56,476 nucleotides of DNA from a virus, in the IMG/VR virus record IMGVR_UViG_3300034096_000849, positions 1-56,476 of that record. The stretch is one strand, 5' to 3'. This document shows positions 30,475 to 47,276 of this stretch, piece after piece; positions within the stretch are counted from its first letter, which is position 1; each line of letters begins with the position of its first letter. A model generated the notes under the pieces. It was given only the letters and a program-made list of their open reading frames with translations. It was not told the DNA's origin and ran no database searches. A program made the position numbers and the translations under genes.

Positions 30475-30760
30475 ACCGGGGGACGCGGGTGGTGTACATG
30501 CCCCCGCATCGGTTGCACCCAACCCACAGCGGCGCCCAGGACTGGTCGGCCATCTCCAGGAGCTGAGCCTCCTGGCGCTCGTCCAGGCCGGGGTGCTTCT
30601 CCCGCAGCTCCTCGAGCAGCATGTCGGGCGGGAAGCGCTGCCCCGGGTGGATGCAGACCCCGCCGCACTGGGGGCACACCCAACGCCAGGCGACGCGCAG
30701 CTCTACCTCGCCGTGAGACGGCAGCGCCTCGAACTCGCGCCGCATCTTCTCAGGATCCAC
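30458..30760 (-). CDS. Small zinc-ribbon protein
   Basis: 100 residues from GTG 30760. Two CxxC pairs (CPQCGGVC near residue 29 and CNRCGG near residue 82) could bind one zinc. It is the last gene of the leftward operon and overlaps both the tail hub gene (convergent) and the HTH gene upstream. DNA- or RNA-binding is likely but unproven. Confidence 0.65.
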   Translation of the reverse strand: MDPEKMRREFEALPSHGEVELRVAWRWVCPQCGGVCIHPGQRFPPDMLLEELREKHPGLDERQEAQLLEMADQSWAPLWVGCNRCGGMYTTRVPRFIAGR

Positions 30761-31154
30761 GCTGGCCCCCGCGCTTGCCCAGCCGGCGCAGTCTGTCCAT
30801 GACCTCCTGAGGCGGCCCGTAGCGCTCCAGGGTCCAGCCGAGAGCTGAGAGCCTGGAGATCGTGGCGCGGCTCACTCCGAGCGCGTCCGCGGCCTCCTGG
30901 TGGGTCGCACCGCCCTGGACCATCTCGCGGGCCCGCTCCACGGCCTCGCGGCTCATCCTGGACTGCTGCGGGTAGGCCGTGCCGTCGGCTGACCTCGAGG
31001 CCCGCGCGTAGTGGGTCGCGCACAGAGGGAGGTCGGTCCAGGCCCAGCCGGAGTCGGTCAGGAGCCTGACGTGGCGCCAGTGCTTGGCGGGCTGGCCGCA
31101 GGGCGGCGCGCCCGGGGTGTCGGTCCAGGCGCAGATGGAGGCGTCGCGGGGCAT
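30750..31154 (-). CDS. HTH DNA-binding protein with N-terminal Cys/His cluster
   Basis: 134 residues from ATG 31154. The C-terminal part has a helix-turn-helix, GATHQEAADALGVSRATISR, of the resolvase/Hin-type. The N-terminal half has scattered Cys/His (SICAW, APPCGQPAKHWRHV, LCATHYA), perhaps a zinc site. An in-frame ORF extends up to 31400 but it crosses a large hairpin, so the internal ATG is preferred. It overlaps the next gene by 11 bases. A regulatory role is likely. Confidence 0.65.
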   Translation of the reverse strand: MPRDASICAWTDTPGAPPCGQPAKHWRHVRLLTDSGWAWTDLPLCATHYARASRSADGTAYPQQSRMSREAVERAREMVQGGATHQEAADALGVSRATISRLSALGWTLERYGPPQEVMDRLRRLGKRGGQRGS

Positions 31155-31389
31155 GCGGGCAGCCTCGCAGGGCTGCCGCGGGGCCGCAAGGGGTGGCCCG
31201 GGATTGGGAGCGCGGGGGCATTTTCCGGCGCCGGCGAAATGGCCGCAAAAGACCGAGGCCCTGGGTTCCGTTACGGATCCCAGGGCCTCTGTTGGATGCG
31301 GCCGGCCCCCCCTTTCTTGGCGGATCGCGGGGGCTCGGCGCGGGCGTCGTTCTGGGGACCAGTCTAGCTGGTGCCCCAGTGCCAAGACC
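31155..31389. other. Intergenic region of the leftward operon
   Basis: 235 bases with no supported gene. It contains the large two-level hairpin at 31241-31303 and a CCGGCGCCGG palindrome at about 31225-31234. It separates the RHH gene from the HTH gene, so it may hold a terminator followed by a promoter for the two last genes. Confidence 0.5.
31241..31303 (-). terminator. Large two-level hairpin, likely leftward terminator or structured RNA
   Basis: An outer 7-bp stem (GGCCGCA 31241-31247 with TGCGGCC 31297-31303) encloses a 16-bp inner stem with one mismatch (31255-31270 with 31274-31289, loop TTA). In the leftward RNA, the inner stem is followed by GGUCUUUU, which is terminator-like. The additional outer stem is not usual for a simple terminator. 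Confidence 0.5.
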
Positions 31390-31587
31390 CTACTCGCCAT
31401 GCCGGGCGGCAGTCAATAGCGCCGCCAGCACCTCTTCCCGGGACGCGGACTGGAGCCCCCGAGCCGAAGCCCAGGCCTCGATCTGGGCCGCCAGCCCGGC
31501 CGGCAGGCGGACCTCCCAGCGGACCTTGGGCGCGGGCGGCGGGTCCAGGCGCGGCCGGCCGGGGCGGCGCTTGGGGGGTGTGGTCAC
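31390..31587 (-). CDS. Ribbon-helix-helix-like DNA-binding protein
   Basis: 65 residues from GTG 31587, overlapping the upstream stop (GTGA). VRWEVRLPAGLAAQIEAWA and SREEVLAALLTAA fit the strand-helix-helix pattern of Arc/MetJ/CopG-type proteins, after a basic AT-hook-like lead with RRPGRPRL. It could autoregulate this operon. Short length and high R/P content limit certainty. Confidence 0.6.
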   Translation of the reverse strand: MTTPPKRRPGRPRLDPPPAPKVRWEVRLPAGLAAQIEAWASARGLQSASREEVLAALLTAARHGE

Positions 31588-31841
31588 TGAGACACCCCCA
31601 GATCGTCTGCGCAGACGGCAGCCCATTCGGCGGGGGGCACGCTGGACATCGGCGCGGTCAGCTCCCGGTCGCAGACGTGGAGCAGCCACCGGTCAGAGAG
31701 CTGCTCCGCATAGCCGTAGCAGCCCTCGGCAAGCTCCACGCGCCAGAGCTGGACGCACTCGGGCGAGGGGGTGTAGCCAGGCTGGTCAGCGCCGCAGGGC
31801 CCCCAGGCGGAGGGCAGGTCGGTCGTGGCTTGGGTGGTCAT
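31584..31841 (-). CDS. Unknown small protein downstream of ribozyme A
   Basis: 85 residues beginning MTTQATTDLPSAWG at ATG 31841. Acidic, cysteine-containing, no known domain. Its start codon is the end of the 92-bp repeat that contains a hammerhead ribozyme, and its leader is C/A-rich with no Shine-Dalgarno sequence. After ribozyme cleavage, this gene's RNA would carry a 5' hydroxyl and a short leader. Confidence 0.6.
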   Translation of the reverse strand: MTTQATTDLPSAWGPCGADQPGYTPSPECVQLWRVELAEGCYGYAEQLSDRWLLHVCDRELTAPMSSVPPAEWAAVCADDLGVSQ

Positions 31842-31929
31842 GGCTTGGTGGGGTCTGTGGTGGTCTTGGCTTGCCTCATCAGTGCGCCGGGGGCCACCCG
31901 AGCGCAGACCGGCCGGGGCCGGTTTCGGC
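31838..31929 (-). repeat. 92-bp direct repeat, copy A (ribozyme plus leader)
   Basis: 91 of 92 bases match the copy at 32307-32398. In leftward reading it comprises the hammerhead ribozyme, then a C/A-rich leader and the ATG of the next gene. The single difference lies in the stem I loop of the ribozyme. Confidence 0.9.
31873..31929 (-). ncRNA. Type II hammerhead ribozyme A
   Basis: Read leftward, the order is GCC (stem II), GAAA, stem III hairpin CCGGCC/GGCCGG, UC, stem I hairpin UGCGC/GCGCA extended by CGGG/CCCG, CUGAUGA, GGC (stem II). All conserved core bases of a hammerhead are present: CUGAUGA, GAA plus the A15.1-U16.1 pair, and C17 at a GUC site. Predicted cleavage lies between bases 31907 and 31906. 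It begins 6 bases after the stop of the preceding gene and ends 31 bases before the next start codon. Stem II is only 3 bp, as in several natural type II forms. Confidence 0.88.
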
Positions 31930-31935
31930 GGGGGT

Positions 31936-32310
31936 TTAGGCCCCCAGGAGTTGGGTCGGGTGCGGCTGGAACCCTTGCGCCTCATATTCGGCGGCGCGGG
32001 CTGCGATCAGGCTTCGAGCAAAGTGCGCAGCCTGGTCGGCACTCGCGCACTTGAAAAGAACCCGGCCGGACTTCTGCCCAACCAGCCAGCCGCGCACCGA
32101 GTAACCCTCGCCAAGCGGCTCGACCTGGAGGCGCTGGAGGTTGGGGCTGCCCTCCCAGCGCCAGGCCTTAGCGGCTTGCACTTTGCCGGCCCAGCCGCGA
32201 GGCATAGCAAGGTCGGATGGCATGAATTGTCCGCCCTCATAAAACAGCTTGTTGACCTCGGAGAAGGCGCCGCCGATAGGGGCTTGCTCGGGAAGGGCTT
32301 GGGCGTTCAT
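31936..32310 (-). CDS. Unknown protein between the two ribozymes
   Basis: 124 residues from ATG 32310. It has aromatic and basic residues and a helical C-terminal half (ASADQAAHFARSLIAARAAE), no recognised family. Ribozyme B precedes its start and ribozyme A follows its stop, so both ends of its mRNA would be made by self-cleavage. It has a C/A-rich leader with no Shine-Dalgarno. The stop codon lies in a GGGGG-CCUAAA-CCCCC hairpin. Confidence 0.6.
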   Translation of the reverse strand: MNAQALPEQAPIGGAFSEVNKLFYEGGQFMPSDLAMPRGWAGKVQAAKAWRWEGSPNLQRLQVEPLGEGYSVRGWLVGQKSGRVLFKCASADQAAHFARSLIAARAAEYEAQGFQPHPTQLLGA

Positions 32311-32398
32311 GGCTTGGTGGGGTCTGTGGTGGTCTTGGCTTGCCTCATCAGTGCGCCGGGAGCCACCCGAGCGCAGACCGGCCGGGGCCGGTTTCGGC
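32307..32398 (-). repeat. 92-bp direct repeat, copy B (ribozyme plus leader)
   Basis: Partner of 31838-31929 with one mismatch. Its upstream edge abuts the stop codon of the gene at 32399. Confidence 0.9.
32342..32398 (-). ncRNA. Type II hammerhead ribozyme B
   Basis: Identical in all core and stem bases to ribozyme A; one C-to-U change (in RNA) is in the 5-base loop of stem I, where it does not alter pairing. Predicted cleavage lies between bases 32376 and 32375. The 5' GCC of stem II follows immediately after the UGA stop of the upstream gene, and the ATG of the next gene lies 32 bases beyond the 3' GGC. Confidence 0.88.
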
Positions 32399-32668
32399 TC
32401 AGTCGGTGCGCCGCACGTACCGGCCCTCGGAATCCACGTCGAGGGTGGCCACCAGGAACTGATAGGGGATGTAGTCGCGCTCCCGTTCGCCAGGCAGCAG
32501 GGATGCCATGAGGCGAAAGTTGTCCCGGGCAGCAACCCCACCTTCGACCAGCGTGCCCACCAGGACGCCCACAGCTTTGTGGTGCAGGCTGCCCTCAATG
32601 CGGGCCAACTGGACAGCTTGGGCGAGGGTTTGCTGGGGCAGGCAGGTGGCTTGGGCGCTGGCGTTCAT
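32399..32668 (-). CDS. Unknown first protein of the ribozyme operon
   Basis: 89 residues from ATG 32668 (MNASAQATCLPQQTLAQ). It is helical and without a known domain. Like the other genes in this operon, it has a leader ending in a C/A-rich stretch and GCC-ATG. Its stop codon touches ribozyme B. Expression probably starts from the promoter-like element at 32726-32758. Confidence 0.58.
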   Translation of the reverse strand: MNASAQATCLPQQTLAQAVQLARIEGSLHHKAVGVLVGTLVEGGVAARDNFRLMASLLPGERERDYIPYQFLVATLDVDSEGRYVRRTD

Positions 32669-34043: not shown

Positions 34044-35527
34044 CGGTCCAGGTCATCGCATCGCCGGTCCTGGTCGAGGTCACGGGGCTGCCCGTGGGCC
34101 CGGTTACGGTCGAGACCGCGGGCCCGGTGTCGGTCGAGGTCACAGGCGGCGGCAGCGGGGGCGCTGTCGGCCCGCAGGGCCCGCCTGGCCCCGAGGGGCC
34201 TGCTGGCCCTCAAGGCCCTGCCGGGCCTGCCGGAGCGACCGGCGCCCAGGGCCCGCAAGGCGTCGCTGGACCCGCCGGCGCAACCGGACCGCAAGGTTCC
34301 GTCGGAGCCACGGGCGCGACCGGGCCCGCTGGCCCGAAGGGAGACACGGGAGACACGGGCCCCCAGGGTCCGCAGGGCACCCAAGGACTCCAGGGGATCC
34401 AGGGCCCGGCCGGCCCTGCCGGCGCAACCGGGGCGACCGGCCCGGCCGGCCCCGAGGGTCCCCAGGGTCCGCAAGGGCCCGCGGGCGCAGCAGGCGCGAC
34501 GGGCGCCACTGGCCCCCAGGGCCCGGCCGGCCCGCAAGGTGACCCCGGCCCGACTGGTCCTCAGGGCCCGGCCGGTGCAAATGGTGCCACGGGAGCCCAG
34601 GGCATCCAGGGGCCAGCCGGACCCACTGGCCCGACGGGCGCCACAGGTCCAGCCGGACCCGAAGGCCCGCAAGGTCCAGCAGGCCCGACGGGTCCGACTG
34701 GAGCGGCCGGCGCCACGGGCCCGGCGGGAGCAACTGGGGCCACCGGCCCCGCAGGACCCGGCTTGCCCGTCGGCGGCATCGCCGGCCAACTGCCGGTCAA
34801 GTTGAGCTCCACCGACTACGCGACGGCCTGGCGCTTCCTGACGCACCTGCCGAGGCTGCAACTCGGCTACTGGCCGACTGCCAGCGGCGCGGGCACCGGC
34901 ATCGGCACCGCCTGGACCAACGCAGGCTCAGCCAGCACTCCGGCGCTCGGCTCGGGATCGGTCTGGGACAGCACGGCAAGGAATCGACTTTCCACCACCG
35001 CGGCCACAGGCCAAAACGCGTCCACTCGCAGCTCGCTCAAGGTCATCCCCGGCAGTTTCGACGCGCTTCCCGGCTTCCGCTTGCGCGCCCTGTTCGGCTT
35101 CAACTCCATGATTGCGGGCCATCGCTGCTTCGTCGGCCTGCAAGGGTCCGCCACTGCCATCGGCAACGTAGAGCCTCAGACGATCGCAAGCTCAATCGCG
35201 TTCATTTCAAGATCGACAGACACTCAATACCAGCTAATGTCGCGGCGCGCCGGCAGCACCGACTTTGTGCCGCTTGGCGCCGACTTTGAAGTTGGCTCGC
35301 TGACGAATGTGCCTCTCGATCTGCTCATCGCGCATGCCCCGAACAGCGCAACCTACGAATGGCGCGTGACCAGGCTAGACACGGGCGCGACGCAAAGCGG
35401 CACCGTGACCAGCGAGAACAGCCCAGGGGTTAACACGCAGCTTGCGTTCCACGCTTGGGTGAACACCGCAAGCTCTTCGACCGCAGCCGTCATTGAGCTT
35501 GCGTCGGTGCTGGCGTACGACTACTAA
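34040..35527 (+). CDS. Collagen-like tail fibre
   Basis: 495 residues from GTG 34040. Residues about 35-240 are almost unbroken Gly-X-Y triplets (G-P-Q, G-P-A, G-A-T), forming a trimeric collagen helix as in other phage fibres. A short beta N-terminal part should attach to the virion. The C-terminal ~240 residues are beta-rich, with no chaperone or lyase signature, and form the likely receptor head. Repeat-rich DNA here is prone to recombination and copy number change. It ends overlapping the convergent repressor gene. Confidence 0.88.
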
Positions 35528-36329: not shown

Positions 36330-36384
36330 AAAAATACGCTCTGAGGCTTGCTGAGTTCAGTCAGTTCAGGAAAGCTGAGCCTCC

Positions 36385-36594
36385 ATGAAGCCCTCGCCCG
36401 CCGACCTGCCGCCCATGCACACGCCCCGGAGCGCCGCCGAGGCCCTCGGGGTGAGCGTGAGCTGCATTCACAAGTGGATCACCTCTGGAGCCCTGCCCGC
36501 CGTCCGCGTGGGCAGCCGCTATCGCATCCCCGAGTCCAGCCTGGCCGCCGTCGTGAGCCAGGTCCCCGCCCCCGCCGGCCAGCCCGGCAACTGA
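36385..36594 (+). CDS. Excisionase-like MerR-type HTH protein
   Basis: 69 residues. RSAAEALGVSVSCIHKWITS followed by GALPAVRVGSRYRIPES is the classical excisionase/MerR-type winged HTH, in which Arg-rich wing residues contact DNA. It likely steers the integrase toward excision, or loads transcription of the integrase. It lies 20 bases before the integrase ATG. Confidence 0.82.
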   Translation: MKPSPADLPPMHTPRSAAEALGVSVSCIHKWITSGALPAVRVGSRYRIPESSLAAVVSQVPAPAGQPGN

Positions 36595-36614
36595 CCCCGA
36601 GACCCCATCCCGCC

Positions 36615-37994
36615 ATGCAAGCAACCATCGAGACCACCCGCCTGGCCGAGGCGATCGCCGCCCTCGTCCAGGCCCCGGCCAGGCCCAGCGCCCGGCTGGA
36701 ATCCGTCGTCCAGGCCTACCTGGAGGCCCAGGCGCCCCACGTGGGGGCCGAGCATCACCGATTCACCCAGCGCAAGATCCGCGACCTCCTGGGAGCGCTC
36801 CAGGCCACGGCGCGAGCCGCCGGCCGCCGGCTGGAGCTCGTCGCCGACCTCGAGGCCGGCCAGGTCTCGGCCTGGATGCGGGCCCGCCTGGACCAGGGCA
36901 TGGCCAGCGCGACCGTCCGGGGCCACGTGGCGGCGCTCAAGACCGCGCTGGCCTGGGCAGTCGAGCAGGAGATCATCGAGCGCAGCCCCCTGGGCAAACT
37001 GCGCCTGCCGGCCATCGGGCGGGCGCGCCAGACTCGGCCCCGGGGCCGCCCGGACTCCGAGCAGATCGCCGCGCTGATCGGGGCCGCCAGCGCCCAGGAC
37101 CATGCAGCCGCCGACGGCATCCCCCAGCTCCCGCTGCTGTGGACGATGATCCGGACCGGCATCCGCCGGGGCGAGGCCATCGCCGCGCGCCGTGGCGATT
37201 ACGACCGCCGCGCCAGGGTGCTCCGAATCCGCGCGGAGAGCGCCAAGACCAAGCGCGGCCGGGTGCTGCCGCTGGAGGACGAGGACTGCGCCGCCATCGA
37301 TGGGGCGATTGCCGCGACGGATCGCCTCCTGGGCCGCCAGCTCGACACCGCGCCGCTATTCCGCTCGCGCCGCGGGGCGAAGCTCCAGCCGCGCAACGTC
37401 TCACGCTGGATGGACCAGCTCTTGCGCGCCGCCGGCGTCCCCAAGCGCAACGCCGCGGGCGAGGCCATCTGCCTGCACTCGCTGCGCCACGCCGCGGCCG
37501 ACAGCCTCGCGGCCACCAACCTGCGCGCCGCCCAGCTCCTGCTCGGGCACACGACCAGCCGCACGACCGAGGGCTACCTGCACTCGACCGATGCTGACTA
37601 TCTGCGCGCCGCGATCCAGGGCCTGCCGCGGCCCGATGTGCAGAACCTGCTCACAACTGGTGTCCCAGGACTCGCAGTCGAGGCTCAGGTGTCCACCGGA
37701 GGAGGCGGCAAAAAACCGCCCCGCAGGGCCACTGGAATGGGTGAGCGAGGGGACTCGAACCCCCGACCCCGAGAACCACAATCTGGGGACGGTTTTCCGG
37801 CATCTTCCAGACAAACCGCCCAGACGAAACCCGAACAGCTGGCCGTCGAAATCCAGGTCCAGTGGCTCCGGGAAGGCCAGGAGATCCTGCTCCCGACTGT
37901 CGAGGCGCTCCGCGCGCTCCTGCTCGCCCAGGAGCCGCTCGCCACGCTTCTTCGCCGCGGCGCCGTGCGCATCAAGGGGGTGGCCCGTGGCTGA
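36615..37994 (+). CDS. int: Tyrosine integrase
   Basis: 459 residues. Catalytic residues are visible: Arg in GIRRGEA (Arg184), HSLR (His288, Arg291), LLGHT (His312) and EGYLH (Tyr321). A SAM-like core-binding domain spans residues ~20-130. The catalytic domain ends near residue 360. The remainder (VPGLAVEAQ onwards) is antisense to a tRNA-like 3' half at 37738-37796, typical of an attP that overlaps the integrase 3' end. The enzyme would integrate the phage at a host tRNA-His gene. Confidence 0.92.
   Translation: MQATIETTRLAEAIAALVQAPARPSARLESVVQAYLEAQAPHVGAEHHRFTQRKIRDLLGALQATARAAGRRLELVADLEAGQVSAWMRARLDQGMASATVRGHVAALKTALAWAVEQEIIERSPLGKLRLPAIGRARQTRPRGRPDSEQIAALIGAASAQDHAAADGIPQLPLLWTMIRTGIRRGEAIAARRGDYDRRARVLRIRAESAKTKRGRVLPLEDEDCAAIDGAIAATDRLLGRQLDTAPLFRSRRGAKLQPRNVSRWMDQLLRAAGVPKRNAAGEAICLHSLRHAAADSLAATNLRAAQLLLGHTTSRTTEGYLHSTDADYLRAAIQGLPRPDVQNLLTTGVPGLAVEAQVSTGGGGKKPPRRATGMGERGDSNPRPREPQSGDGFPASSRQTAQTKPEQLAVEIQVQWLREGQEILLPTVEALRALLLAQEPLATLLRRGAVRIKGVARG
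37738..37796 (-). other. Candidate attP: tRNA-His-like 3' half
   Basis: Leftward, the sequence reads as the 3' half of a tRNA: anticodon loop TTGTGGT (anticodon GTG, His) with 3' stem TCTCG, a variable region, T-arm GGGGG-TTCGAGT-CCCCT and acceptor strand CGCTCAC. No 5' half exists in the phage, so it is not a tRNA gene but probably the crossover core matching host tRNA-His. Confidence 0.75.
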
Positions 37995-41579: not shown

Positions 41580-42748
41580 AGAAGACGAGTAACGAAACGC
41601 CGGACATCCGAGTTAGCCTCGCCGAACTGAGCGAGTCTCCCCAGTTCATGCGGCTCAGTTTCCACGAGCAGGGCGTCTATTTTGCCCTGATCCTGGCCTG
41701 CATCAAGGCCGGTGGCAGCATCGGCGCCGACCGGGAGAGCCTGGCCGAGGCGCTGCTGGTGATGCCGGATGAGGTGGCGAGCCTCGTGTCTAGCGCGGTC
41801 CGCGTGTGCTTCGAGGAGGCCGGCGGGAAGCTGACGCACCGGGCGCTCCAGGTCGAGCTGGCGAAGCTCCAGCAGGCTCTCCGCGACAAGGCCGCGGCTG
41901 GCCGGAAGTCGGCTGAAGCGCGCCGCGCGACGGGCAAACTCCAGCCCAAGAGGGACCCGAGGAAGCCCCGATCCGTCGAACAGGTGTTCGATCCTGCCGA
42001 ACAGGTGTTCGAAAAAAAGCAACAGCTGTTCGGCGCCACCGAACAGGTGTTCGAGAAAATCGAACAGCTGTTCGAGCCCACCGAACAGATGTTCGGCGCC
42101 GTCGAACAGGTGTTCGAAAAAAATGAACAGCTGTTCGACGGCCAAAAACCGCGAATTTCCCCCCACGCCACAATTCTCCCCTATCCGATCACCCCCTCTA
42201 TAGTCTCCCCCACGCCGCCGTCGTCGCCGACGCCGGATCCGACCCCGCCGCCGCTGCCGCAGTCGGTCCTGGACCTGGCCTCGCGGCTCGCCGTGCTCGG
42301 CCTGCGGAACACCCACGAGGCCGAGCGGCTGCTGCTGTGGCTGACCCGGCCGGCCTGGGCTCAGCACCCGCCGGAGCTCTGGGTCGCAGCGATCGAGCGC
42401 TGGGTCAGCCGGTCCCGCGACACCGGCGAGTGGTCCCCGGTCCAGGCCATCCGCAAGTGCCTGCTCGGTCGGTCGAGCCGCGCCGGCCACCCGCTGACCG
42501 AGGGCGACCTCGCGGCCTGGATCCAGACCGACGCGGACGCCATCGCGGCGGAGCGCCAGGCCGCCCAGCGAGCCGCTCAGCCGGCGCTCCCCGCGGAGCC
42601 GGCCAAGCCCGCCGAATCGCCGATCGCGCGCCTTCGCCGGGAGCGGGCCGAAGCGACCAAGGCCGCCAAGGCCTCTGCCGCTGCGCCTGGGGCGCGCGGA
42701 GTATCTCCGATGGCCTCGGAGTCAATCCCGGCCCCCGTCGCGTCCTAG
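41576..42748 (+). CDS. Replication initiator with internal iteron origin
   Basis: 390 residues. The N-terminal ~115 residues resemble the winged-helix DUF1376/initiator-type domain (FHEQGVYFALILACI). Residues ~134-189 consist of eight 7-residue repeats of the type EQVFEPA, encoded by palindromic 14-mers at exact 21-bp spacing. A proline-rich linker follows, then a helical C-terminal part that may bind DnaB helicase, which is encoded next. The arrangement of iterons inside an initiator gene is like lambda O. The helicase gene begins 23 bases after the stop. Confidence 0.78.
   Translation: MKKTSNETPDIRVSLAELSESPQFMRLSFHEQGVYFALILACIKAGGSIGADRESLAEALLVMPDEVASLVSSAVRVCFEEAGGKLTHRALQVELAKLQQALRDKAAAGRKSAEARRATGKLQPKRDPRKPRSVEQVFDPAEQVFEKKQQLFGATEQVFEKIEQLFEPTEQMFGAVEQVFEKNEQLFDGQKPRISPHATILPYPITPSIVSPTPPSSPTPDPTPPPLPQSVLDLASRLAVLGLRNTHEAERLLLWLTRPAWAQHPPELWVAAIERWVSRSRDTGEWSPVQAIRKCLLGRSSRAGHPLTEGDLAAWIQTDADAIAAERQAAQRAAQPALPAEPAKPAESPIARLRRERAEATKAAKASAAAPGARGVSPMASESIPAPVAS
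41977..42137 (+). repeat. Eight 14-bp palindromic iterons, candidate origin
   Basis: Copies start at 41977, 41998, 42019, 42040, 42061, 42082, 42103 and 42124, so the period is exactly 21 bp, two helical turns. The consensus is CGAACAGSTGTTCG, itself a near-perfect palindrome. Downstream, 42140-42215 is a low-GC stretch (AAAAA, GAATTT, ACAATT, TATAG) suited to unwinding. Related in form to lambda ori within gene O. Confidence 0.85.
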
Positions 42749-42771: not shown

Positions 42772-44181
42772 ATGACCAACCAAACCGAGGAACGGCCGGC
42801 TTTGGATGCCGATGCGGCCCGCCTGGCGCTCGCCTGGCTGATCCGCGAGCCGCGGAACGTCCTGGGAGTGCTCGAGGACCTGGAGCCTGCCAGGTGGCCG
42901 ACCCGCGACTCCCGCGAGATGGCCTACGCCATGCACTCGCTGGCTCTCGCAGGCCGGCAGGTCACGGTATTCGCCGTGGTCGATGAGCTGCGCCAGCGGG
43001 CGCGCCTGTCAGAGACCCTGACGCCCCAGGCCATCAACGAAATGCACCGGGAGGGGGTGCTCGAGGAGGAGGGGCGCGCCTACCTGGCGACCGTCCGAGC
43101 GGCGGCCGACCTCCGAGATGTCCGCTCAGCCCTGGACAACCTCCTACGCCGCGCGGAACTGGCTAAGCCGCGCCCGAAGGAGGTCCAGTCCCTACGGGAG
43201 GCCGCTGGCGAGGCCATGCTGCGCCTGGCGAACGCAGGCGGGCAGAAGGCCCGCGGGATCCAGACGCTCACCGAGGCCGGCCGCCGGCACATTGCGCAGC
43301 TAGTCGAGGCCCGCGAGGAGGGCAGGCGGCCCGCGTACAGCTCGGGATTTACTTCGGTGGACGACATGCTCCGCGGTGGATTTCGTCCAGGTCAGCTCGT
43401 AGTCGTTGGCGGTCGGCCTGGAATGGGCAAGTCGGCGATCGCGCTTGATTTCATTCAGCGCCCCGCAGCGAGACTCGGAATTCAACCTGTCGTGTTGATG
43501 CAATCTCTGGAGATGATCTCTGAAGAGGTTGCATCGCGTGTTTTTTCTCGTGAGCTTGGCGAACAACACGGGCGAATGTTAATCGAAGGGGCAACAGCTC
43601 AAGATGCGGAAGTCTTGAATCGCATCCTCGATGAGGCTGCGCCTTCGATGGACGGCGTCCGGATCATGGACGACCCGAAGGCCGGCATCCCGGCGCTCGA
43701 AGCCCAGGCGCGGGCGCTCAAGATGCAGACCGGCCGGCTGGACCTGGTGATCGTGGACTATCTCCAGCTCGTGCGGAGCAACAAGCGGATCGACAACCGC
43801 GTGCAGGAGGTTTCGGGCATCACACGCGACCTCAAGAACCTGGCGCAGAGTCTGCGCGTGCCGGTGATCGCGCTGTCGCAGCTCTCGCGCGCCGTGGAGA
43901 TGCGGCCGGACAAGCGGCCCAACCTCTCAGACCTCCGCGAGTCGGGCACGATCGAGCAGGACGCGGACATCGTGCTCCTCATGTACCGGCCAGGCTACTA
44001 CGGCCTGAAAGCCGATCAGGACGAGGCCTATGCCATTTGCGCCAAGCACCGCAACGGACGCACGGGCGATATCCGACTGCGCTGGATCGGCGAAACGATG
44101 AGCTTCGACGACCCGAAGCTGCACACCGAGAACTTGAACGCCACGATGATCCGCAACGGCGTCTACTCGGAGGAAGACTGA
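42772..44181 (+). CDS. dnaB: DnaB-like replicative helicase
   Basis: 469 residues after AGGAGG at 42757. N-terminal DnaB domain over residues 1-110; the RecA-like C-domain has Walker A GGRPGMGKSA with Lys220, Walker B VIVDYLQL, and SQLSRAVE with LRESGTIEQDAD. It unwinds DNA at the fork and should be loaded at the iteron origin. Residues about 205-285 are encoded by DNA of clearly lower GC than the rest of the gene. It ends 5 bases before the convergent RuvC gene. Confidence 0.94.
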   Translation: MTNQTEERPALDADAARLALAWLIREPRNVLGVLEDLEPARWPTRDSREMAYAMHSLALAGRQVTVFAVVDELRQRARLSETLTPQAINEMHREGVLEEEGRAYLATVRAAADLRDVRSALDNLLRRAELAKPRPKEVQSLREAAGEAMLRLANAGGQKARGIQTLTEAGRRHIAQLVEAREEGRRPAYSSGFTSVDDMLRGGFRPGQLVVVGGRPGMGKSAIALDFIQRPAARLGIQPVVLMQSLEMISEEVASRVFSRELGEQHGRMLIEGATAQDAEVLNRILDEAAPSMDGVRIMDDPKAGIPALEAQARALKMQTGRLDLVIVDYLQLVRSNKRIDNRVQEVSGITRDLKNLAQSLRVPVIALSQLSRAVEMRPDKRPNLSDLRESGTIEQDADIVLLMYRPGYYGLKADQDEAYAICAKHRNGRTGDIRLRWIGETMSFDDPKLHTENLNATMIRNGVYSEED

Positions 44182-44186
44182 TGCGC

Positions 44187-44666
44187 CTAGCCCGCGGCCT
44201 TGAGCGGCTGGATGCTGACCGCGAGCGCCAGCAGCACGGCATCTGTCATGTCGAGCGGCGCGCCGGCGAAGTCTTGCCGGAGCATCCGGCCGACCACATC
44301 GCGGACCTGTTCCTTGGTCGCCGACCGGCTGCCGCAGAATCGAGCGCGGAGGTTGGGCACCGCGAAGTTTTCGAGCGCGATCCTGCGCCGGCCGACCGAT
44401 GCCAAGACGATGCCGCGAGCGCAGCCAACCGCCAACGCGGCCTGCGGGCCCTTGCCCACGTAGGCCATTTCTACGCCAGCACGCTCGACTGTGTGCTCGC
44501 CGAGCAGCACGTCAAGCTCGCCTTGCAGGAACGCCAGGCGCTCCTCGATGGGCCGCGCCGCCTTGGCCTTGATGATGCCGCCGTCCACGAAGCGCGGAGC
44601 TGGCGTCCGCTCAATGATCGCGTAGCCGAGGACTTTCGTGCCGGGGTCGAGTCCGATGACAAGCAT
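44187..44666 (-). CDS. ruvC: RuvC-like Holliday junction resolvase
   Basis: 159 residues from ATG 44666, with AGGGTGG upstream; an in-frame GTG at 44720 is less likely. IGLDPGTKVLGYAII carries the first catalytic Asp; VEMAYVG offers Glu and DMTDAVLLAL the C-terminal Asp pair. It resolves branched recombination intermediates before packaging. Second and last gene of a leftward pair. Confidence 0.88.
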   Translation of the reverse strand: MLVIGLDPGTKVLGYAIIERTPAPRFVDGGIIKAKAARPIEERLAFLQGELDVLLGEHTVERAGVEMAYVGKGPQAALAVGCARGIVLASVGRRRIALENFAVPNLRARFCGSRSATKEQVRDVVGRMLRQDFAGAPLDMTDAVLLALAVSIQPLKAAG

Positions 44667-46976: not shown

Positions 46977-47276
46977 ATGAAACACGAACTGATGCGCTGC
47001 GCCGAGTGCGCGGCAGTCCAGCAGATCGGCCCCGTGGCCGAGTGCCGCGAGTGTGGCTCGCGCCAAGTGCGCGCCTACCACCCGATCCCGACGATCAGCC
47101 TGCGCTCGATCGCCGGCCAGGTCCACGACATCGACCCGGTAGGCGTGGTGTCGATGCGCCGCTTCGGCCAGATCACCGTCCTGGAGCTGTCCAGCGGCGA
47201 GGAGGTCGAGACGTACGCCCACGAGGCTCTGATCGCCGCGAAGATCCAGCGGGCGCTGGTGGGAGGTGCGGCGTGA
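46977..47276 (+). CDS. Zinc-ribbon protein
   Basis: 99 residues. Two pairs, RCAEC near residue 7 and ECRECG near residue 22, form a rubredoxin-like knuckle; the rest is beta-rich with a C-terminal helix. Overlaps the following GTG start by four bases. Part of the recombination operon; role unknown. Confidence 0.65.
   Translation: MKHELMRCAECAAVQQIGPVAECRECGSRQVRAYHPIPTISLRSIAGQVHDIDPVGVVSMRRFGQITVLELSSGEEVETYAHEALIAAKIQRALVGGAA

Follow-up and report, generated by a model that had tools for sequence, protein, structure and literature searches.

Type II hammerhead ribozymes at the gene junctions of a phage operon and a possible role in separating its mRNAs

The stretch of DNA analysed here (the window) is the complete sequence of an IMG/VR virus record (56,476 bases). 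Its minus strand carries two type II hammerhead ribozymes, one at each of the two boundaries between the genes of a three-gene operon. They are assigned to this class by covariance model, core, topology, cut-site position and pseudoknot, and from their sequence they are predicted to cleave themselves. The pair is real and correctly identified, and its kind has been known since 2011. We consider it probable that the two ribozymes split one transcript of the operon into single-gene mRNAs. This reading is built on their structure, their exact placement and the recurrence of the same placement across many phages; cleavage in the cell, as well as its effects on stability, dosage and translation, would follow from it, and the chemistry of the ends would be that of the established hammerhead mechanism.

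The ribozyme pair and its operon

A scan of the window against Rfam (cmscan) returned two matches to Hammerhead_II (RF02276), both above the gathering score of 37 and spanning the full model (1–66 of 66). Copy 1 matched at 32333–32399 (minus strand, 44.4 bits, E 7e-6) and copy 2 at 31864–31930 (minus strand, 44.1 bits, E 8.5e-6), and these are the sole matches to the family in the whole 56,476-base record. Two weak matches in the window, to Prion_pknot and mascRNA (E 3.5), were taken as chance. Delimited from stem II to stem II, the ribozymes occupy 32342–32398 and 31873–31929 of the minus strand and, read from 32398 and 31929, present the core in the order GCC-GAAA-stem III-GUC-stem I-CUGAUGA-GGC, with the invariant GAAA, CUGANGA and U-H cut triplet occurring in both copies as GAAA, CUGAUGA and GUC. 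A preliminary description had proposed type II hammerheads with the full core in this order and had suggested the covariance-model search as a check; core sequence and model agree on that identity. The cut sites that it predicted from sequence, between 32376 and 32375 in copy 1 and between 31907 and 31906 in copy 2, are also correct as predictions, whereas its perfect stem I helix of 5 plus 4 bp is in fact made of 5 bp, one bulged U and 4 bp.

Folding and model alignment gave the same topology for both copies, with stems I and III closed by loops and stem II open. The minimum-energy structure of each 67-nt element is the expected three-stem structure, although the folding energies (z of -0.3 and -0.1 versus shuffled sequences) are uninformative in DNA of 67% GC. 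With a strict structural descriptor, the same two elements were recovered in the window and 1.5 Mb of reversed sequence yielded 0 hits, which excludes chance as the origin of the pair. The same pair is also present in an independent, near-identical contig (IMGVR_UViG_3300035187_004226), and it is therefore not an assembly error of a single sample.

In both copies, loop I can pair with the tail that follows the ribozyme. This pseudoknot has 5 bp in copy 1 (UGGCU at 32361–32365 with AGCCA at 32336–32340, minus strand) and 4 bp in copy 2 (UGGC at 31893–31896 with GCCA at 31867–31870, minus strand). The single base that differs between the ribozymes does lie in the loop of stem I, as first described, but it is not neutral for pairing since it shortens the pseudoknot from 5 to 4 bp, and copy 2 may be a slow cutter. 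Each ribozyme is part of a 103-nt direct repeat (32296–32398 and 31827–31929, minus strand, 97% identity); since the repeated unit comprises ribozyme, leader and start codon, it probably arose by recent duplication.

The order of transcription is P0002 (89 aa, 32399–32668), copy 1, P0001 (124 aa, 31936–32310), copy 2 and P0003 (85 aa, 31584–31841), all on the minus strand. Stem II of copy 1 follows directly on the TGA stop codon of P0002, and 6 nt separate the end of the P0001 stop codon (TAA) from copy 2. The same leader separates copy 1 from the start of P0001 (32311–32341, minus strand) and copy 2 from the start of P0003 (31842–31872, minus strand); P0002 is not preceded by a hammerhead, but its leader is related to these two. 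The three genes have in common the start context AAGCCATGA, which is found nowhere else in the record, and no Shine-Dalgarno sequence was seen ahead of any of them, unlike in most relatives. Many gene starts across the whole record lack one as well, unlike those of most surveyed hammerhead phages, and the host of this phage may initiate translation differently. In both copies, the AUG of the CUGAUGA core also opens a 13-codon frame (MRQAKTTTDPTKP; 32355–32311 and 31886–31842, minus strand), whose stop codon overlaps, within an ATGA, the start codon of the gene that follows; this could be a translational coupling that replaces the Shine-Dalgarno sequence, or chance. No promoter-like site was recognised upstream of the operon, so that we infer the single transcript. 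A further gene downstream (30750–31400, minus strand), with a helix-turn-helix region (PHROG 664, E 1e-8), possibly belongs to the same transcript.

Protein-family searches assigned no function to P0002, P0001 or P0003, the first and the last being devoid of any family match. The N-terminus of P0001 has relatives in other phages: its motif FYEGGQFMP (32310–32218, minus strand) recurs in proteins with dissimilar remainders (L078, L079), and this region would constitute a small unnamed domain.

The record looks like that of a tailed temperate phage, judging from its genes for terminase, head morphogenesis, major head protein, tape measure, tail and integrase, to which are added a helicase, recombination genes and a repressor-like protein. 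The phage setting of the preliminary description is thus borne out by the terminase, major head protein, tape measure and integrase genes, and the ribozymes sit in a minus-strand island amid plus-strand genes. No close relative was found by nucleotide search of the phage collection or by protein search with P0001, nor were relatives of P0001 found in the genome collection; the nearest public phages have only short stretches in common with the window, chiefly in the collagen-like tail region. This region (34187–34695) consists of 9-base units in a tail-fibre-like gene and is similar to public phages at the nucleotide level. A tRNA-His at 37739–37817 (minus strand) lies inside the end of the integrase frame (36348–37994, plus strand), with a genuine-looking 3' half and a 5' half that is not. 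Its 3' half is probably the phage attachment site (attP) for a host tRNA-His gene, and no exact copy of it was found in the genome collection.

Placement of type II hammerheads in phage genomes

Type II hammerheads of other phages were surveyed by IMG/VR pattern scans followed by Rfam scans of whole records; the records having been picked by pattern, their counts carry no information on prevalence. The strict descriptor yielded 270 copies in 153 loci plus the window, against 0 in reversed sequence. Hammerheads whose stems contain a bulge escape it (3 of the 9 Rfam matches of phage R4 were recovered), and copy numbers were therefore taken from the Rfam scans, which gave 12 copies in one record (G040), 11 in two (G108 and G125), 9 in G097, 8 in G011 and G023, and 7 in G005 and G014. 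None of the 52 multi-copy loci defined by the strict descriptor had copies on mixed strands.

The position of the ribozymes relative to genes was measured on 236 non-redundant copies. An upstream stop codon lay between -6 and +20 nt from stem II in 84% of them, versus 10% of random positions, and a Shine-Dalgarno sequence with a start codon followed within 40 nt in 73%, versus 8% of controls; both placements were combined in 59% of the copies and in 1% of the controls. The commonest spacing from the stop codon to stem II was 0–3 nt, and the commonest distance from the hammerhead to the start codon 23–26 nt. These distances are within the reach of a ribosome: termination at the upstream gene would place a ribosome over stem II and GAAA, and initiation at the downstream gene would place one over the tail. 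Folding and cleavage might then happen only at a ribosome-free junction and be set by the translation level of the genes. Identical spacing is nevertheless expected if the element is merely packed between two genes, and we hold such a translation-sensing switch to be unlikely.

The pseudoknot seen in the window recurs in the survey, where loop I and the tail can form at least 4 bp in 81% of 240 phage copies, compared with 28% when loops and tails are swapped between copies. Within other phage genomes, the stem sequences of the copies diverge widely while the core and the placement are kept. This bears on two alternatives. First, the window pair could be a passenger, that is, a recently duplicated repeat whose ribozymes serve no purpose for the phage, as the 97% identity over 103 nt and the occurrence in one phage only, its near-identical contig aside, might suggest; the persistence of core and placement elsewhere and the strong strand and junction bias speak against this, and we find it quite unlikely. 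Second, the inverted repeats could act on DNA as repressor (stoperator) sites, known between the genes of R4-like phages (PMC10276819), or as transcription terminators. A DNA site would be expected to keep the letters of its stems, whereas it is the catalytic core, the cut site and the pseudoknot that are kept while the stems change; moreover, no U-tract follows stem III and a terminator scan found none there. We regard either of these roles as extremely improbable.

Type II hammerheads that occur in clusters around phage genes have been known since 2011, when their cleavage in vitro, and that of one in Escherichia coli, was described and a role in mRNA processing proposed (Perreault et al. 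2011, Figure 3, PMC3088659). The clusters of A. tumefaciens, A. caulinodans and C. scindens consist, as in the window, of same-strand ribozymes flanking individual phage or prophage genes; the window differs by its genes and phage, and by near-identical copies with a common leader and start codon. P0001 is flanked in this way by two same-strand copies, on a record with integrase and structural genes. The preliminary description was right that the two copies are clustered on one strand, but the weight that it gave to their occurrence has to be tempered in view of the 2011 clusters and of the arrays of 7–14 copies found here. Since the two active-looking copies are exactly 469 nt apart on the same strand, two cuts would excise a 469-nt P0001 RNA with ligatable ends, which could be circular or otherwise protected like viroid-like RNAs. 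This outcome appears very improbable to us, given that multi-copy arrays mostly have many copies with uneven spacing and that, in the 2011 study, circular and spliced products were sought and neither was detected (PMC3088659).

One IMG/VR array led to cultured Streptomyces phages. Rfam scans found 9 Hammerhead_II matches in R4, 10 in Celia, 9 in Omar, 9 in Diane, 11 in Janus, 14 in Jevington, 11 in Alvy and 11 in Issmi, so that arrays of this group comprise 9–14 copies within one gene block and are longer than the clusters in the accessible portions of Perreault et al. (2011). In R4 (NC_019414), the mini-genes gp60.1, gp67.1 and gp75.1 overlie hammerheads (41762–41845, 44125–44217 and 47073–47174, respectively); they are probably not real genes, and the starts of some of their neighbours may be misannotated too. 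We found no literature relevantly linking hammerheads to Streptomyces phages, subscription papers being mostly outside the search.

A tRNA-like element at orthologous junctions

The related Streptomyces phages Lika, Hydra, Joe and phiHau3 gave no hammerhead match in Rfam. Their gene gaps are similar in size to those of the hammerhead phages and are filled by a regular 40-nt element, which begins with an acceptor-like stem of 5 bp whose first base is G, continues with an 11-nt linker (A-N-YGGCA-N'-N-C-A) and ends with a 6-bp T-stem and the loop TTCGAGN, usually followed by ACT. We counted 29 copies in these four phages (L245, L246, L247 and L249) and 0 in the eight hammerhead phages, plus 188 distinct copies in 69 IMG/VR stretches (L252–L320), with up to 11 per locus. 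The element is absent from the window, and phiC31 has none besides its own tRNA-Thr.

The four phage stretches with the 29 elements gave 0 tRNA genes with ARAGORN, and an ordinary tRNA with an anticodon arm was rejected on this basis. No Rfam family matched above its cut-off, the best at an element being mascRNA-menRNA with 26.9 bits versus 42.5 (E 0.19). The RNAs of that family are themselves tRNA-like, and both RNase P and RNase Z cleave them. Across the pairs of the element, 99.6% of cells were paired, and the covariation score was 0.742, compared with 0.165 for shuffled and at most 0.147 for slid alignments. Two covarying pairs involve the linker, one closing the YGGCA loop and the other joining the linker to the T-loop. 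The descriptor used to collect the copies required the two stems and set no condition on these two pairs, which therefore are independent evidence, with the limit that the IMG/VR scan pattern constrained letters at their sites in one copy per locus. The element is possibly a new structured RNA, mimicking the tRNA elbow, and a substrate for which RNase P cleavage is predicted; possibly it is itself a ribozyme.

As with the hammerheads, many same-strand copies of the element are found between stop and start codons (70% versus 7% of controls) and ahead of the same gene families, with an unrelated structure, no hammerhead core and a predicted RNase P cut. Among reciprocal-best orthologue pairs, a hammerhead stands ahead of the gene in one group for 47 of the 59 genes that have the tRNA-like element ahead of them in the other, versus 43 of the 213 that lack it. 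After collapsing to gene families, an R4-group hammerhead was present in 7 of 9 families with the element and in 2 of 13 others (Fisher p = 0.007), an agreement that may be explained in part by roomy junctions, given that both elements need spacer. The swap of one element for the other at orthologous genes is consistent with a common cutting task. Three IMG/VR stretches (G145, G146 and G147; L280, L300 and L308) combine tRNA-like elements with a type II hammerhead whose match is weak (31.7 bits, under the cut-off) and could represent phages carrying both systems.

Proposed role in the processing of phage mRNAs

The window pair has the core, the open stem II, the GUC site, the short stem II and the loop I-tail pseudoknot of RF02276 type II hammerheads and no structural difference from them, its sequence and phage being new to the searched phage collection. 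In the mechanism that we propose, the operon would be transcribed as one RNA and each hammerhead would cut itself after GUC. The upstream mRNA would be left with the stem III hairpin and a 2',3'-cyclic phosphate end shortly past its stop codon, and the downstream mRNA would start, about 65 nt ahead of its start codon, at the stem I hairpin with a 5'-OH. The transcript of the window would thereby be turned into three short mRNAs with hairpins at their new ends, and the cuts would uncouple the stability and the dosage of neighbouring genes.

Separation of the operon into single-gene mRNAs is supported by the full-model matches, the placement at junctions, the strand uniformity over 52 loci and the matching of the pseudoknots, as well as by the R4-group arrays, the exchange of elements at orthologous genes and the published cleavage of other phage clusters. 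It is weakened by the window itself, where the downstream genes lack a Shine-Dalgarno sequence, no promoter-like site was recognised and the pseudoknot of copy 2 is shorter. More generally, we are slightly inclined to think that phages punctuate their polycistronic mRNAs with exchangeable cutters, hammerheads in the R4 group and an undescribed mimic of the tRNA elbow in the Lika/Joe/phiHau3 group, with the window pair as a small instance. The same cutting job between genes would then be done by self-cleavage in one group and, likely, by RNase P in the other.

In 2023, the reason for the gene associations of hammerheads was still called unknown (PMC10085705). Aminoglycosides bind hammerheads and block phages (PMC9239200), and a link between the two in phages is speculation. 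What is added here to the clusters known since 2011 is a placement rule, long arrays in R4, a cultured laboratory phage, and the exchange of hammerheads for a tRNA-like element that is apparently undescribed. Together, the rule, the R4 arrays and the exchange make the separation of phage mRNAs by hammerheads a hypothesis that is directly testable in one phage, and the tRNA-like element would in its own right count as a new structured RNA.
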